Source: Iodobacter sp. (GTDB lineage Bacteria > Pseudomonadota > Gammaproteobacteria > Burkholderiales > Chitinibacteraceae). Taken from it: 33,501 bases of DNA. Below the pieces are notes generated by a model, which ran no database searches, was not told where the DNA came from, and saw only the letters and a program-made list of their open reading frames with translations. The position numbers and the translations under genes are program-made. Every line of letters begins with the position of its first letter. The first letter of the stretch is position 1. The stretch is taken from positions 1-33,501 of the forward strand of contig NZ_JANXSO010000096.1 in the NCBI RefSeq assembly GCF_025352645.1, read 5' to 3'. Below are positions 18,769 to 25,183 of this stretch, piece after piece.

Positions 18769-19536
18769 TCAGGGTTTAGGCGGTAGTTGCAAGACTGTTA
18801 CACCGACATTATCGGCTTTTTTACGATTAAACCAGTCTGGTGCAGAGCTTTGTACCGCAATAATCTGCGGGCCGCTGCTCGTATTTAGCCAGATTGGCGA
18901 GCCTGAGTCACCAGCAAGCGTATCGCAGCGATGATAAATCGTATTGTTTGGGCGTAAGCGGGTAATTTTGCAGTCTTTATGCGCTGTTAGCTCTGTATCG
19001 TGGTCTTCGGCAAAGCCCGCCTGTGTTGCTCGTGATTTTGCGCTGGCAATAACAGCTTTTAATTGGTCTTTTTTGCCATTAAATAGCGGTAGCGGCTCTG
19101 GCGCTTTGCCATCAACTAATTTTAGCTTCAACCAAGCGATATCGTAGGCGGCAGCGGAGTCTTGGATGTAAACGTCATCCCCTTTATAAACCAAGCCCTT
19201 TTTAAAGCTAGGGTGAAAATATTGCCCGACTACTTGATAGCGCGCCTGATACTCACCTTTATGAAAGCCCGCTTTAAACCAGCGTCCTGCATCCAGCTTT
19301 TTTGCATCCATTAAGAAACAATGTGCGGCAGTAATGGCTAAATCAGGCGCGACTAGCGTGGCGGTACAGGTACTTGCTGCCACCGTTTCTAGCTGGCCAA
19401 TCGCTGCAAATGGCGGTGCATAAGGGGCGGCAATAAATACCCTATCATCCTGGCCAAAAAACAAAATTTTGTTTTCTTTACTGGTTTGGGCAAAAACGCT
19501 GGAGCTGAGGGCAAGAAGAAGGATGGCGTATTTCAT
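18769..19536 (-). CDS. Secreted trypsin-like serine protease
   Basis: A 255-residue exported protease of the S1 (chymotrypsin) fold. A signal peptide (MKYAILLLALSSSVFA) is followed by the triad His72 (AITAAHCF), Asp132 (AAYDIAWLKL) and Ser211 (LAGDSGSPIW), all with proper context. Cysteines 57 and 73, and 189 and 204, are placed to form two disulfides. There is no PDZ domain and no membrane anchor, so it should be periplasmic or secreted; the substrate is unknown. It ends 33 bp before proA on the same strand, yet nothing links the functions, and co-transcription may be incidental. Confidence 0.88.
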   Translation of the reverse strand: MKYAILLLALSSSVFAQTSKENKILFFGQDDRVFIAAPYAPPFAAIGQLETVAASTCTATLVAPDLAITAAHCFLMDAKKLDAGRWFKAGFHKGEYQARYQVVGQYFHPSFKKGLVYKGDDVYIQDSAAAYDIAWLKLKLVDGKAPEPLPLFNGKKDQLKAVIASAKSRATQAGFAEDHDTELTAHKDCKITRLRPNNTIYHRCDTLAGDSGSPIWLNTSSGPQIIAVQSSAPDWFNRKKADNVGVTVLQLPPKP

Positions 19537-19678
19537 ATCTTATTTATAAGTTTTGATCGTGCTAAATATTGCGGCTTTGGGCTGCAAAATGTATGCACAA
19601 AAAGAGGGTGAAGAGTGATTAGGATAAGTTGATGACGTTTAGTTCATTCACTTATGCAAATCGTTCTTTTAAAACAAC

Positions 19679-19706
19679 AAAAACGGGGACCGAGGTCCCC
19701 GTTTTT
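19679..19706. terminator. Strong intrinsic terminator of the asr-like gene
   Basis: AAAAACGGGGAC (19679-19690) pairs perfectly with 19695-19706 around a 4-base loop, with a T-tract on either strand. It lies 17 bases past the asr-like stop codon. Confidence 0.93.
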
Positions 19707-19722
19707 GATACAGCGTTTGGTA

Positions 19723-20166
19723 TTACTTAGCAGCAGAAGCGGCAGAAGCAGCAGATGCGTGCTTTTTAGCTTGAGCTTTTTGTACTGTAGAAGCAGCAGA
19801 AGCAGCGGCTTTCTTAGCTTGAGCTTTTTGTACTGTAGAAGCAGCAGAAGCAGCAGCTTTCTTAGCTTGAGCTTTTTGTACTGTAGAAGCAGCAGAAGCA
19901 GCTACTTTCTTAGCTTGAGCTTTTTGTACTGTAGAAGCAGCAGAAGCAGCTACTTTTTTAGCTTGAGCTTTTTGTACTGTAGAAGCAGCAGAAGCAGCTA
20001 CTTTCTTAGATTGAGCTTTTTGTACTGTAGAAGCTGCTGGAGCAGCTTTCTTAGCGTGCTTTTCAACTTTAACTGTTTTAACAGTAGAAGCTGTCGATGC
20101 GTCAGCAGCGAATGAAGTAGCTGAAACGAAAACTGTAGCGAGCAATACGGCAAGAAGCTTGTTCAT
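19723..20166 (-). CDS. asr: Exported alanine/lysine-rich repeat protein, Asr (acid-shock) type
   Basis: A 147-residue protein with a signal peptide (MNKLLAVLLATVFVSATSFA) and a low-complexity mature part made of 16-residue repeats of the form STVQKAQAKKVAASAA. It is very rich in Ala, Lys, Ser and Gln, and strongly basic. The E. coli acid-shock protein Asr has the same build: signal peptide, then Ala/Lys repeats containing AQKAQAAKK. In E. coli asr is activated by RstA; here the gene sits 158 bp behind rstB, with an RstA-box-like site upstream. AGGAT at 20176-20180 is the ribosome-binding site, and GATAAT (complement of 20216-20221) is a possible -10. In E. coli the protein helps survival in acid, probably by binding protons or shielding periplasmic proteins. 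Low complexity makes strict homology hard to prove; a histone-like repeat protein is excluded by the signal peptide. Confidence 0.72.
   Translation of the reverse strand: MNKLLAVLLATVFVSATSFAADASTASTVKTVKVEKHAKKAAPAASTVQKAQSKKVAASAASTVQKAQAKKVAASAASTVQKAQAKKVAASAASTVQKAQAKKAAASAASTVQKAQAKKAAASAASTVQKAQAKKHASAASAASAAK
19766..20039. repeat. 48-bp tandem repeats inside the asr-like gene
   Basis: The anchor GAGCTTTTTGTACTGTAGAAG recurs with its first base at 19773, 19821, 19869, 19917, 19965 and 20013, exactly 48 bases apart each time (the anchor is described from its start only). There are therefore six near-identical units, each coding 16 residues, differing mainly at the Val/Ala codon after the KK pair. 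Such a tract can gain or lose units by slippage without breaking the frame. Confidence 0.92.
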
Positions 20167-20263
20167 TTGATTTAGATCCTGAATGATTTATTGGGTTGGT
20201 CATGCTATGGGATGGATTATCAACACTTCCTTGCCGAAGTTCGATAAGCACTTGGTAGCAGTC

Positions 20264-20277
20264 TGTAACGCTATGTA
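20264..20277 (-). promoter_or_regulatory. RstA-box-like site upstream of the asr-like gene
   Basis: The minus strand reads TACATAGCGTTACA. The E. coli RstA box, as I recall it, is TACATNTNGTTACA, so 11 of 12 defined positions match (only the T at position 7 differs). It lies 98 bp upstream of the asr-like ATG and about 43 bp upstream of a GATAAT -10 candidate, a suitable place for an activator. Confidence 0.65.
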
Positions 20278-20324
20278 CGTTGGCTACGATAAAGGTAGGC
20301 GATGAGCGTAGTTACCACGGTTGC

Positions 20325-21635
20325 CTATAGCACGGAGCGACCCGCATCTTTTAATGGAGTTGGCCAACTCAGGGTAACGCGTGCGCCGCCTAATGGTGCA
20401 TCGCTAATTGCTGCCGATCCCCCGTGCCCGCGCATAATCATTGAAACGATGGCGAGGCCAAGCCCAAAGCCGCCGGTTTGGCGATTACGGCTGACTTCTA
20501 AACGCTCAAAGGGTTGCAGCAGGCGTTGGCGCTCAGATTCAGGAATCCCTTGGCCATTATCATCAATATGTATTTGCGCCCTGCCGTTTTCCCATTGCAC
20601 CGTTAGTGCAATTTGAGTGCCGCCATAGCGCCGAGAGTTGCTCATTAAATTAGCTAAGGCACGGGTTAGGTAATGACTATCTGCTTCCAAATAAGGTGTT
20701 TGGCCTGGTAGTAGATTGATAAGCTCGGGGGTAATGGAGCTTTGGCTACTAAACTCGCTGATTTGTCGCCGTAGCCACGGCAGAATTTCTATGGGCTGGG
20801 TTTCTAAATTGAGTTGGGGCTTATCTAAAGTCGACATGGTGAGCCATTCTTCGATTAACTCGTCGATTTGGCCTAGATCGCGCTCAATGGCAATAATTTG
20901 CTCGCTGGTAGACGCTCCGCTTTTTATGGCTTCTAAACGATAACGTAGCCTAGCTAAGGGGGTGCGTAAATCATGCGACACCGCATCAATCAGCGCCTTG
21001 CGGCTGGCGGTGAGTTCTTCTACATCGTGGGCCATGCGATTAAAGGTGACGCCTAGCGAATTCAGCGTTGAGCTTTCATTAAGGGTTACCCGAACACTGA
21101 AATCCCCTTCGCCCAGTTGGCGGCTTTGCCGTGCCATATGTTGTAAATCTCGCCAAAGCGGGCGCATCCACAGCCAAGTAGGCAATCCAAGCGCTGCACA
21201 CATGAGTAACAGCGCCACCATGTCAGGCCAAGAAAAATTGTCCAGCCGCTGCAAATAAGGCACCGGCCCCAGTACCACCATCAGCTCGGTATGGGGAATG
21301 CGGTGTAAATAAACGTCCTGATTTTCTAGGAAAATAATGTCGCCATTGATCAGTGCCTGCTGATTACTTTTGCTGAGTGTGTAGGCGTTGAGTGTTTCAA
21401 TTTCTACTGGTAGAGGCAGTTTGTTTTTAAGGCGCTTAACTTCATCATGCCAAATTGAAGGGGGTAAATCGCCAAGGGTGGACTCGATCACGCTGATGGT
21501 GGTTTTGAAAATATCCGATAAATAATGTTGATTACTGCTTTCAAATAGATTTTGATAGAGCTCATCAATCACAAAGGATGACGCCAAAAAACAGACCACC
21601 ACGGTAAGATAAAAGCGTAGAAAGAGTTGGCGCAT
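20325..21635 (-). CDS. rstB: Sensor histidine kinase RstB
   Basis: A 436-residue inner-membrane kinase. I take the ATG at 21635 (MRQLFLRFYLTVVVCFLASSFVI), which starts directly with the first membrane helix as in E. coli RstB. The open frame from 21776 runs through a large hairpin and adds 47 unlikely residues. A periplasmic domain of about 100 residues (26-134) precedes the second helix (MVALLLMCAALGLPTWLWM). After HAMP comes the phosphoacceptor motif DAVSHDLRTPLARLRYRLEAI with His221. The ATPase domain has LMSNSRRYGG, DDNGQGIP and GGFGLGLAIV. It is the partner of RstA encoded upstream. No strong ribosome-binding site is visible. Confidence 0.9.
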   Translation of the reverse strand: MRQLFLRFYLTVVVCFLASSFVIDELYQNLFESSNQHYLSDIFKTTISVIESTLGDLPPSIWHDEVKRLKNKLPLPVEIETLNAYTLSKSNQQALINGDIIFLENQDVYLHRIPHTELMVVLGPVPYLQRLDNFSWPDMVALLLMCAALGLPTWLWMRPLWRDLQHMARQSRQLGEGDFSVRVTLNESSTLNSLGVTFNRMAHDVEELTASRKALIDAVSHDLRTPLARLRYRLEAIKSGASTSEQIIAIERDLGQIDELIEEWLTMSTLDKPQLNLETQPIEILPWLRRQISEFSSQSSITPELINLLPGQTPYLEADSHYLTRALANLMSNSRRYGGTQIALTVQWENGRAQIHIDDNGQGIPESERQRLLQPFERLEVSRNRQTGGFGLGLAIVSMIMRGHGGSAAISDAPLGGARVTLSWPTPLKDAGRSVL

Positions 21636-21728
21636 AGGGGACCGCTTGTTGGGGATGGGGAGACTGTTATTTGTTAGTAGGTAGATATGAGGTAAAACTA
21701 TTTTTTGCCCGTAAAAATCACTACGGTT

Positions 21729-21778
21729 TGTTGACGCTGCATTCACAATTACGCTGAGCCGTGAATTCAGCGTCAACA
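21729..21778. promoter_or_regulatory. Large switchable hairpin in the rstA-rstB gap
   Basis: TGTTGACGCTGCATTCAC (21729-21746) pairs with 21761-21778 at 17 of 18 positions. The right arm contains TCAGCGT (21767-21773), which can instead pair with ACGCTGA (21751-21757) in the loop, so two mutually exclusive hairpins are possible. There is no T-tract after it on the minus strand. It may tune the rstB level relative to rstA by RNA processing or attenuation, or be a dispersed repeat. Confidence 0.6.
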
Positions 21779-21890
21779 GACTTTAAAGGCGCTATAGCTT
21801 ATAGTTTTTGTAGAGCGAGCTTAGCTTTTTGGCTAGGCCTATTCGTGATTTTTTGTGAGCTATGCAGTAATTTTGATTCCCGACGCTCGC

Positions 21891-22616
21891 TTACTCTTGC
21901 CACCAGATGTCCGTGGCAAATAAATAACCTTTATGGCGGATGGTTTTTATTTTGCGTGGCTCATGTGGATCATCATCCAGCTTTTTGCGCAGACGTGAGA
22001 TCGCCACATCGATGCTGCGATCCATTCCGTCGTACTCAATGCCGCGTAATACTTTTAATAAGTGATCGCGCGATAAAATATCGCCGGCTTGGCTGGCTAA
22101 TGCCCACAGTAAATCAAAATCACCCGTGGATAAGCCTAGCGCTTCGCCGCGATAACTGGCGGTGCGGTTGCGTAAATCAACCAAAAGCTGGCCAAAATTT
22201 AGCGTAGAGCGATCGGCCGCAGGTGCTGGGCTGGATACAAGCGGCGTGCCGCTGGCCGTTTTGCGTAGATGGGCACGAATTCGGGCCAGCAACACCGAGG
22301 GCGGTGTGGTTTTAACCACGTAGTCGGTTGCGCCGATTTCAAAGCCTAGAATCTGATTCATATCGCTATTGAGCGAAGTGAGCAAAATCACTGGGCCAGT
22401 CCAAAATTCGCGGATTTCGCGGCATAGCGTTAGGCCATCTTTGCCGGGCAACATAATATCGAGCAAGACCAGCGATGGTGGGTTATTGCGCACCGCTTCA
22501 ATGAGGCCGCTGCCATCGGGTAAGACTTCAACAGTAAATTCAAACGAGCGTAAAAAACTTCCAACCAGCTCCGCCAGTTCTGCATCATCTTCAACAAAAA
22601 GAATGCGATGGTTCAT
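21891..22616 (-). CDS. rstA: Response regulator RstA
   Basis: A 241-residue OmpR-family regulator. The receiver domain has FVEDDAELAELV, phospho-acceptor Asp53 (LVLLDIMLPGKDGLTLCREIR), LLTSLNSDMNQILGFEIGATDYVVKTTPPSVLLARIRAHLR, and the winged helix LSTGDFDLLWALASQAGDILSRDHLLKVLRG...SIDVAISRLRKKL...IKTIRHKGYLFA. These long stretches match what I recall of E. coli RstA closely, including the unusual KTTPP in place of KPF. In E. coli it works under PhoPQ and activates asr among others. It is first in the order rstA-rstB-asr on the minus strand; 255 bp separate it from rstB. Confidence 0.93.
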   Translation of the reverse strand: MNHRILFVEDDAELAELVGSFLRSFEFTVEVLPDGSGLIEAVRNNPPSLVLLDIMLPGKDGLTLCREIREFWTGPVILLTSLNSDMNQILGFEIGATDYVVKTTPPSVLLARIRAHLRKTASGTPLVSSPAPAADRSTLNFGQLLVDLRNRTASYRGEALGLSTGDFDLLWALASQAGDILSRDHLLKVLRGIEYDGMDRSIDVAISRLRKKLDDDPHEPRKIKTIRHKGYLFATDIWWQE

Positions 22617-23772: not shown

Positions 23773-23811
23773 CACCCCAAAAGTTGGACACCCGTCCATA
23801 TTTTTGGGGTG
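23773..23811 (+). terminator. Hairpin at the IS left end, before orfA
   Basis: CACCCCAAAA (23773-23782) pairs with TTTTGGGGTG (23802-23811). Inside it GGAC (23786-23789) pairs with GTCC (23794-23797). Five T bases follow, then the orfA ATG. Transcripts entering from outside would fold this hairpin, stop, and hide the GGGG sequence that could serve as ribosome-binding site. Several IS families protect themselves this way. Confidence 0.72.
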
Positions 23812-23816
23812 TTTTT

Positions 23817-24347
23817 ATGTCCAAGTACACAACGCAATTCAAGCTTTCTGTCGTTCAGCAATATTTAACGGGCGAAGCAGGCATCAAAACGATCACCAAC
23901 CAACATGGTATCGAGCAGGCCATGTTTCGTCGCTGGGTGAGGTCGTTTCGCCAGCATGGCGAATCGGGGTTAGCGCCTAAATACAGTCATTACAATGCCG
24001 CATTCAAGCTCTCCGTGCTCCAGCACATGTGGGACAATCATCTTTCCCAGCAGGAAACGAACGCTTATTTTGATATACGTAGCCCCGCTTGCTTGAGCCA
24101 ATGGAGCGCACAGTATGATGCTGGTGGAGTTGCTGCCCTTGAACCCGCGCCTAAAGGTCGAAAGAAATCACCCATGCCCATCGCCGAAAATAACACTGCT
24201 CCCACGCTGGTTGATGATGAAACCCGTAGCCGTGAAGAACTCATTGCAGAAAACAAACGCCTCCGTTTAGAGGTGGCCTACATAAAAAAGTACAATGCCT
24301 TAGTTCAAGCCAAAGCCCAATTGGCGCAGCAGAAACAGCGCAAATAG
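23817..24347 (+). CDS. IS3-family transposase OrfA
   Basis: A 176-residue DNA-binding protein of the IS150 group. Two helix-turn-helix units are visible: about 8-45 (LSVVQQYLTGEAGIKTITNQHGIEQAMFRRWVRSF) and about 60-105. A C-terminal coiled coil (SREELIAENKRLRLEVAYIKKYNALV) mediates oligomerisation. The start is the ATG at 23817, where the decayed copy also starts; an upstream in-frame ATG at 23784 lies within the terminal hairpin. The stop TAG shares one base with the GTG of orfB. Alone it would act as a repressor or binding subunit. Confidence 0.93.
   Translation: MSKYTTQFKLSVVQQYLTGEAGIKTITNQHGIEQAMFRRWVRSFRQHGESGLAPKYSHYNAAFKLSVLQHMWDNHLSQQETNAYFDIRSPACLSQWSAQYDAGGVAALEPAPKGRKKSPMPIAENNTAPTLVDDETRSREELIAENKRLRLEVAYIKKYNALVQAKAQLAQQKQRK
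24284..24290 (+). promoter_or_regulatory. A6G slippery heptamer for -1 frameshifting
   Basis: A AAA AAG sits in the orfA frame with exactly the X XXY YYZ phasing (AAA at 24285-24287, AAG at 24288-24290). The -1 frame entered here is open from 24290 through to the orfB stop, giving an OrfAB fusion of about 455 residues. Confidence 0.9.
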
Positions 24348-25183
24348 TGCTTGAATTAAGGTCACAGTTTCCATTGGCTGATTTGCTGAAACACGCTGAT
24401 TTGCCGCGTAGCACCTTCTATTATCAGAAGCAGGCTTTGGCGGTGAGCGACAAGTATCAAAATGTCAAAACGCAGCTTAAATCACTATTTGCTGAACATA
24501 AAGGCCGCTATGGTTATCGGCGGCTCATGCTGGCGCTCAGAAAAAAAGGCGAATGGCTGAATCACAAAACGGTTCAGCGTTTAATGCAAGAGCTGGGTTT
24601 GAAGTCGTGCGTTCGGCCTAAAAAGTACCGTTCATACAAGGGTGAATGCGGCAAAGTCGCGCCAAATATATTGCAGCGGCAATTTAGTGCGGACAAACCG
24701 AATCAGAAATGGGTGACGGATGTGACTGAGTTTAATGTGCAGGGAGAAAAGCTCTATCTGTCACCGGTGCTGGATTTATACAATGGAGAAATTATCGCTT
24801 TTGAAATGGCGCGCCGCCCGGTATTTGCGCTGGTCAGTCAAATGCTAAAGAAAGCTTTAGCCAAACTGAGCGCGGATGAAAAGCCGCTGCTGCATTCAGA
24901 TCAAGGTTGGCAGTATCAAATGGCAGGGTATCGGCAGCAATTGGCCGAAAAAGGCATGGTGCAAAGTATGTCAAGAAAAGGGAATTGCCACGATAATGCA
25001 ACGATGGAAAGCTTCTTCGGCACGTTGAAGTCAGAGTTCTTCTACTTAGAAAAATTCACTAGTCTTGAGCAACTAGAGCAAGGCATCGTGGATTACATTC
25101 ATTACTATAACCACGACCGAATCAAGCTGAAATTAAAAGGGCTGAGTCCTGTGCAATACAGAACCCAGACCTTGAGTACCTAG
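24347..25183 (+). CDS. IS3-family transposase OrfB (DDE integrase domain)
   Basis: A 278-residue catalytic part. A helix-turn-helix (HTH_21-like) region (YGYRRLMLALRKKGEWLNHKTVQRLMQELGL) is followed by the rve integrase core. The catalytic residues are Asp in WVTDVTEF, Asp in LHSDQGWQY and Glu in NATMESFFGTLKSE, the complete D-D-35-E triad. The C-terminal YIHYYNHDRIKLKLKGLSPVQYR is the usual end. It can start at a GTG overlapping the orfA stop, but the functional transposase is most likely the frameshifted OrfAB fusion. Confidence 0.94.
   Translation: MLELRSQFPLADLLKHADLPRSTFYYQKQALAVSDKYQNVKTQLKSLFAEHKGRYGYRRLMLALRKKGEWLNHKTVQRLMQELGLKSCVRPKKYRSYKGECGKVAPNILQRQFSADKPNQKWVTDVTEFNVQGEKLYLSPVLDLYNGEIIAFEMARRPVFALVSQMLKKALAKLSADEKPLLHSDQGWQYQMAGYRQQLAEKGMVQSMSRKGNCHDNATMESFFGTLKSEFFYLEKFTSLEQLEQGIVDYIHYYNHDRIKLKLKGLSPVQYRTQTLST

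Follow-up and report, generated by a model that had tools for sequence, protein, structure and literature searches.

In Escherichia coli, the response regulator RstA and the gene asr form an acid-responsive circuit: RstA is reported to bind the asr promoter of strain LF82, with loss of binding when its box is deleted (PMC11135836), the RstA box and structure have been described (PMC4117788), and asr is reported to be about 1000-fold up at pH 4.4, its product acting as a disordered chaperone (PMC10746267). The last source also places ydgU within the asr transcription unit. In strain K-12 the order is asr-ydgU-ydgD, and YdgD is reported to contribute to acid resistance, with a deletion effect stronger at pH 8 than at pH 5.5 (PMC13339887). 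The first-pass annotation of the DNA analysed here had stated that rstA and asr are not adjacent in E. coli, and indeed rstA begins 10.5 kb downstream of asr in K-12, with ydgD, mdtIJ, tqsA, pntAB, ydgH, ydgI, folM and ydgC between them. By contrast, in a 33,501-nucleotide contig of Iodobacter sp. (NZ_JANXSO010000096.1, assembly GCF_025352645.1; this whole stretch is called the window) rstAB directly precedes an asr-like gene, which is followed by ydgD. No report of an RstA-Asr circuit outside enteric bacteria was found in a search of titles and the starts of abstracts, which left subscription literature uncovered and does not prove absence.

All genes of the locus lie on the minus strand, so that the regulator, the kinase and the repeat protein stand in a row on one strand, as originally described. 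The rstA gene (21891-22616) precedes rstB and encodes an OmpR/PhoB-type response regulator of 241 amino acids (aa), whose identity to E. coli RstA is 52.5% over 242 columns. Its score against the NCBIfam model NF007977 was 328.8 bits, 1.2 under the cut-off of 330 (the next model, OmpR, gave 189), and it ranked first among the 64 matches that its genome gave. The recognition helix reads YDGMDRSIDVAISRLR, and the DNA-contacting residues R200, S201, V204 and R208 (E. coli numbering) are retained. The listed reading frame of rstB begins at a TTG at 21776, and an ATG start gives a sensor histidine kinase of 436 aa (20325-21635) with HAMP, HisKA and HATPase_c domains. This protein was matched over residues 1-428 by NF007898 with 466 bits, against a cut-off of 478 and 164.8 for the next model, and its identity to E. 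coli RstB is 34.7% over 429 columns. Judged from these comparisons of sequence, the pair is orthologous to that of E. coli.

Behind rstB, the asr-like gene (19723-20166) encodes 147 aa with a signal-peptide-like start, judged by inspection and composition, and basic Ala/Lys repeats (6.4 copies of a 48-bp unit), the mature part having a pI of about 10.8. It is followed by a module member that the first-pass annotation missed, a ydgD-like gene for a trypsin-type serine protease of 255 aa, also with a signal-peptide-like start (18769-19536). The protease is 39.7% identical to E. coli YdgD over 234 columns (E 5e-50), scored above the cut-off for Pfam Trypsin and Trypsin_2, and has its H72, D132 and GDSGSP columns invariant among eight rows; no NCBIfam model names either it or E. 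coli YdgD. When E. coli YdgD was used as the query, this gene was the sole match in its genome. Thus, as in E. coli, orthologous RstA and RstB are accompanied by a secreted-looking basic protein followed by YdgD, whereas the asr-ydgD gap of the window holds no ydgU-like reading frame. The locus is best read, with a probability of roughly 80%, as an RstA-controlled envelope acid-stress module that is contiguous in Neisseriales and split in E. coli.

The predicted RstA box, which had been noticed at 20264-20277 of the minus strand as agreeing with the RstA motif at 11 of 12 defined positions, was recovered at that place. It reads TACATAGCGTTACA, with two TACA half-sites 10 bp apart, and has one mismatch to TACATNTNGTTACA, the consensus confirmed from PMC4117788; 97 bases separate it from the ATG of the repeat gene. 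A third half-site, TACC, which matches a three-half-site pattern, lies 10 bp beyond the box (20254-20257, minus strand), and a probable -10 element, GATAAT, lies 56 bp from the box start (20216-20221, minus strand), where a sigma-70 scan that requires a -35 element called no promoter. The asr promoter of E. coli has the same layout, with an RstA box, a third half-site (AACC), TATAGT at the offset of the GATAAT of the window and a leader of similar length. On its own, the box is weak: four matches with at most two mismatches were found in the window, one of them with a single mismatch, against 2.41 expected, which is not significant, and it is position and conservation that carry the case. The exact string TACATN3GTTACA occurs at three sites in the genome; its other copies (C2 and C25) have no third half-site and were set aside as candidate regulon members.

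Conservation was followed in 43 Chitinibacteraceae genomes (loci L009-L051), all of which carry RstB orthologues, 56-100% identical. In 38 of them a secreted-looking Ala/Lys-rich protein begins after rstB, 35 copies being called by script (30 complete, 5 running off the contig end) and three being interrupted by runs of N; the complete copies measure 116-402 aa. A box of the form TAC[AT]N4GTTACA, with at most two mismatches to the consensus obtained by SELEX (systematic evolution of ligands by exponential enrichment), is present in 38/38 of the genomes with the gene, and so is a third half-site,.AC[CT]A, at +20. An ATAAT-like -10 element stands at a fixed distance in 37 of these 38 promoters, and the ATG lies 100-123 bp from the box start in 35 loci, compared with 117 in E. 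coli. Both the gene order and the box proposed from the single sequence are thus conserved in relatives, while TACATN3GTTACA as a strict string does not hold everywhere: counted from the start of the first half-site, the fourth base may be A or T (TACA/TACT) and the fifth, in some genera, C, and the T missing from the window box falls at a non-conserved position.

The five remaining genomes (G009, G011, G019, G021 and G029, from two genera) keep rstAB, with proA following rstB at a distance of 56-136 bp, and have neither the box nor the repeat gene after rstB; YdgD was not found in any of the five. Searched whole, they gave no exact three-half-site pattern, and one of them (G029) has a two-half-site match elsewhere in its genome. 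Within the family, YdgD was present in 23 of the 27 genomes searched, in 20 cases just downstream on the rstB contig and in three on another contig. Across the order it was detected in 14 of 300 sampled genomes, namely seven Chitinibacteraceae, five of family f27 and one each of f13 and f231. Neisseriales is used here, as in the first-pass annotation, for families that the genome resource puts in one larger order.

For a wider comparison, a YdgD alignment scan with one genome per species yielded 359 relatives, of which the best 80 were kept, so that enteric counts from this named set are no census. The set comprises Chitinibacteraceae (including Iodobacter), Pseudogulbenkiania and Paludibacterium (labelled Chromobacteriaceae in the trees), Craterilacuibacter (labelled Neisseriaceae) and Enterobacterales. 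Box density was counted in the 64 of 80 loci in which asr was called by the filter, in a zone of 330 bp before asr. The other 16 loci, in which the filter called no asr, were set aside: asr is broken at its start by runs of N in four (L075, L079, L083, L101) and present but missed by the filter in three (L087, L094, L122), six have less than 0.6 kb ahead of ydgD (L077, L080, L081, L084, L086, L117), one keeps the box before a ydgU-like reading frame only (L136), one has neither box nor asr (L147), and in one neither was found in the 2.7 kb before ydgD (L127). Boxes with at most two mismatches reached 3.08/kb in the zones (65 matches; 63 of the 64 zones with a box) and 0.0185/kb elsewhere in the 80 loci (56 in 3.03 million strand-bases), a 166-fold difference; as boxes of the 16 set-aside loci were counted as elsewhere, this procedure works against the RstA-box reading. 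A third half-site of the form.ACC at +20 accompanied 59 of the 65 boxes before asr and 6 of the 56 outside.

An alignment of 26 representative promoters, hand-chosen at about one per genus or lineage and selected by core match, gave a mean information of 1.57 bits for the box, 1.50 for positions 20-25, 1.08 for the -10 element and 0.11 just upstream; the way of selection inflates the box columns but not those of the third half-site and the -10 element. The only zone without a box of at most two mismatches was that of Erwinia phyllosphaerae (L134, 6172-9150), a single case in which rstB is present, the asr box has decayed to three mismatches and no rstA match was found in the 20.7-kb locus, the rest of that genome not having been searched.

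The contiguous order rstA-rstB-asr-ydgD was also found in Pseudogulbenkiania, Paludibacterium and Craterilacuibacter, and in three genomes of family f27 (L161 and L162, both with perfect boxes, and L163). In a genome of family f13 (G054), asr-ydgD and rstAB are divergently oriented, and asr still has a perfect box ahead of it; in one of family f231 (L160), the gene between rstB and ydgD encodes a short, divergent protein that looks secreted and is preceded by a box with two mismatches. The sequence ahead of ydgD in L164 was too short to judge, and the G521 region was not included. Among enteric bacteria, two Serratia loci keep order and direction as rstA-rstB-x-asr-ydgD, rstB and asr being 2.8-2.9 kb apart, and in two Erwinia loci, one without rstA, rstB lies 1.7 kb before asr, again in the same order and direction. 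Unlike the window, these four loci are not contiguous, and in three of them the upstream neighbours are ydgH and ydgI. With regard to vertical descent or transfer, Enterobacterales form one supported group in both trees and Chitinibacteraceae another, the remaining Neisseriales being poorly placed; a row labelled Janthinobacterium, a metagenome-assembled genome, groups with Iodobacter. Iodobacter violaceini is among the named rows nearest to the window in both trees, which points to Iodobacter as its genus. A class-wide survey of 369 genomes with the E. coli YdgD query gave four weak matches besides the genome of the window and no strong enteric match; enterics with YdgD thus seem to be missing from this sample, which is uninformative on Enterobacterales.

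In all 64 named loci with an asr call, ydgD lies downstream of asr, and 56 of them have it within 0.4 kb. In a Franconibacter locus (L136, 8053-8261), a ydgU-like small reading frame directly follows an asr-type promoter whose box is perfect; asr itself was not found in this locus, and the promoter may now drive ydgU-ydgD.

The extension of the RstA-Asr link beyond enteric bacteria, as first proposed, is supported by the joint occurrence of gene, box and rstAB in the family, in other Neisseriales and, with an insertion, in Serratia. The orthology of RstA and RstB, the synteny of rstB and asr, the E. coli-like promoter and the joint absence of asr, box and ydgD argue for an RstA-activated module, against which several observations weigh. 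Chitinibacter and Deefgea have TACT as the first half-site; the asr box of Klebsiella pneumoniae is reported as imperfect (PMC4117788); an f27 locus (L163) has asr without a box within two mismatches; and G054, Pseudogulbenkiania and Paludibacterium have AAAC or AACA in place of an ACC third half-site and no clear ATAAT-like -10 element. The distance between asr and ydgD is 0.9-2.7 kb in 8 of the 64 named loci, and two enteric loci (L136 and L147) have ydgD without a detected asr. The contact residues of RstA were rejected as proof of specificity, since L006, at least, among the OmpR-type paralogues keeps them too, so that they do not discriminate RstA. A chance match of the box, upstream of what would be a plain low-complexity reading frame, was plausible from one sequence, given the number of matches in the window, and is rejected by the comparison: conservation in every family genome with the gene and the enrichment before asr make its probability negligible. 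It is quite unlikely that the box serves another OmpR-family regulator and that its proximity to RstA is incidental. The genome has several OmpR-type paralogues, the five asr-less genomes retain rstAB, and in other genera similar boxes of three half-sites precede LTXXQ/Spy-type genes that neighbour regulators with a best model other than RstA; but the box is common to E. coli asr, where binding by RstA itself is reported (PMC11135836), and it adjoins rstAB in families f1, f13 and f27, as it does less closely in Serratia.

One weak point of the RstA-Asr reading concerns the product. The window protein has the build of Asr, in that a signal-peptide-like start is followed by a small, repeat-bearing mature part that is very basic and rich in Ala, Lys and Gln; E. 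coli Asr has 102 aa and few repeats, compared with 147 aa and 16-residue repeats here. No match was found to the Asr models PF06392 and NF033636, and it is therefore called Asr-like and not placed in the family. Its Smith-Waterman alignment to E. coli Asr was not above composition shuffles (Z 1.2), nor did other family copies fare better (1.0, 0.4, -0.3 and -0.8), and the Chitinilyticum copy likewise had no match to the Asr models. The protein may be no descendant of Asr, in which case an unrelated low-complexity secreted protein would have come under the asr promoter in the ancestor of Chitinibacteraceae, and the regulatory link would be homologous and the product an analogue. The absence of model matches in the window and Chitinilyticum proteins, with their Z of 1.2 and 0.4, speaks for such a replacement, which is nevertheless considered unlikely. 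The gene occupies the same slot between rstB, or the promoter, and ydgD; the Lys fraction (0.19 vs 0.21) and pI (10.8 vs 10.5) are close to those of E. coli Asr, and a QKAQ core is common to both. In addition, the intermediates are graded: E. coli and Serratia Asr match the Asr models clearly, and NF033636 gave 102 bits for E. coli, 40.8 for G054, 33.1 for Craterilacuibacter and 28.6 for Pseudogulbenkiania, the last three being weak matches under the cut-off, with shuffle Z values of 2.5 for Pseudogulbenkiania, 3.2 for G054, 4.8 for Craterilacuibacter and 11.6 for Serratia. Altogether, scores for G054 and three further Neisseriales copies fell under the cut-off. The Asr function first suggested for this low-complexity protein thus stands on synteny, promoter, composition and intermediates, and does not stand on sequence similarity.

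Under the preferred reading of an RstA-controlled module, the inner-membrane kinase RstB would sense an envelope or acid signal and phosphorylate RstA. Phosphorylated RstA would then bind the TACA-N6-TACA box head-to-tail, at sites marked by conservation, and probably also the third half-site at the same 10-bp step, activating transcription from the -10 element placed 56 bp from the box start. The secreted, very basic, presumably disordered product would work like E. coli Asr as a periplasmic acid chaperone, and ydgD would supply a secreted protease of the same pathway, transcribed by read-through past the hairpin behind asr or from a promoter of its own. Processing of Asr by YdgD is no more than a hypothesis. 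A bolder version, which we regard as rather doubtful, is that rstA-rstB-asr-ydgD is an ancestral, self-contained beta-/gammaproteobacterial acid module predating the E. coli arrangement, with YdgD as a dedicated periplasmic protease that processes or clears Asr and RstA acting on three head-to-tail half-sites as a dimer plus one protomer.

Other features of the locus and of related loci were recorded. A terminator-like hairpin with a 13-pair stem and a T-rich tail follows the asr-like gene (19678-19707, minus strand); one such hairpin in the scanned region, against 1.6 expected from shuffles, is not significant by count. A conserved 5' leader hairpin of asr was rejected as a general feature: folding gave -9.2 to -11.6 kcal/mol for five Enterobacterales, weaker values for many Chitinibacteraceae and no more than 0 to -3.9 kcal/mol for the window and its eight genus mates. 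About 1.2 kb upstream of rstA, two adjoining reading frames (23784-25183) resemble, on visual inspection, an IS3-type transposase pair. The Spy/CpxP (LTXXQ) systems likewise place a periplasmic stress protein beside an OmpR-type regulator with a similar three-step box, and differ in the protein family and in having regulators whose best model is not RstA; four of ten matches of the three-half-site pattern outside the genome of the window lay near the start of an LTXXQ/Spy-type gene (L059, L062, L066, L067), with such a regulator beside the gene in L062, L066 and L067, the three in which the neighbour was scanned. In Formivibrio (L085 at 10479 and L080 at 8487, both minus), a second Ala/Lys-rich protein that looks secreted, about 155 aa long, is encoded on the strand opposite to ydgD, with no RstA box within two mismatches. 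Family contigs end inside the asr-like gene in L025, L035, L040, L045 and L046, and runs of N lie inside it in L023, L042 and L044 of the family and in L075, L079, L083 and L101; the repeats therefore seem to break assemblies, and the gene is likely under-reported.

The locus is a compact new arrangement of a known circuit, and the finding is somewhat stronger than first claimed: what began as a motif match becomes a circuit that is conserved from Neisseriales to Enterobacterales. Almost base for base, the box stays constant while the protein that it drives varies several-fold in length, and the third half-site is a testable prediction for a promoter already studied in E. coli. Attention is also drawn to repeat proteins that disrupt assemblies and elude family models, and YdgD, little studied in the literature searched, gains a pathway. 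The RstA-Asr circuit seems to be older and wider than the enteric bacteria.

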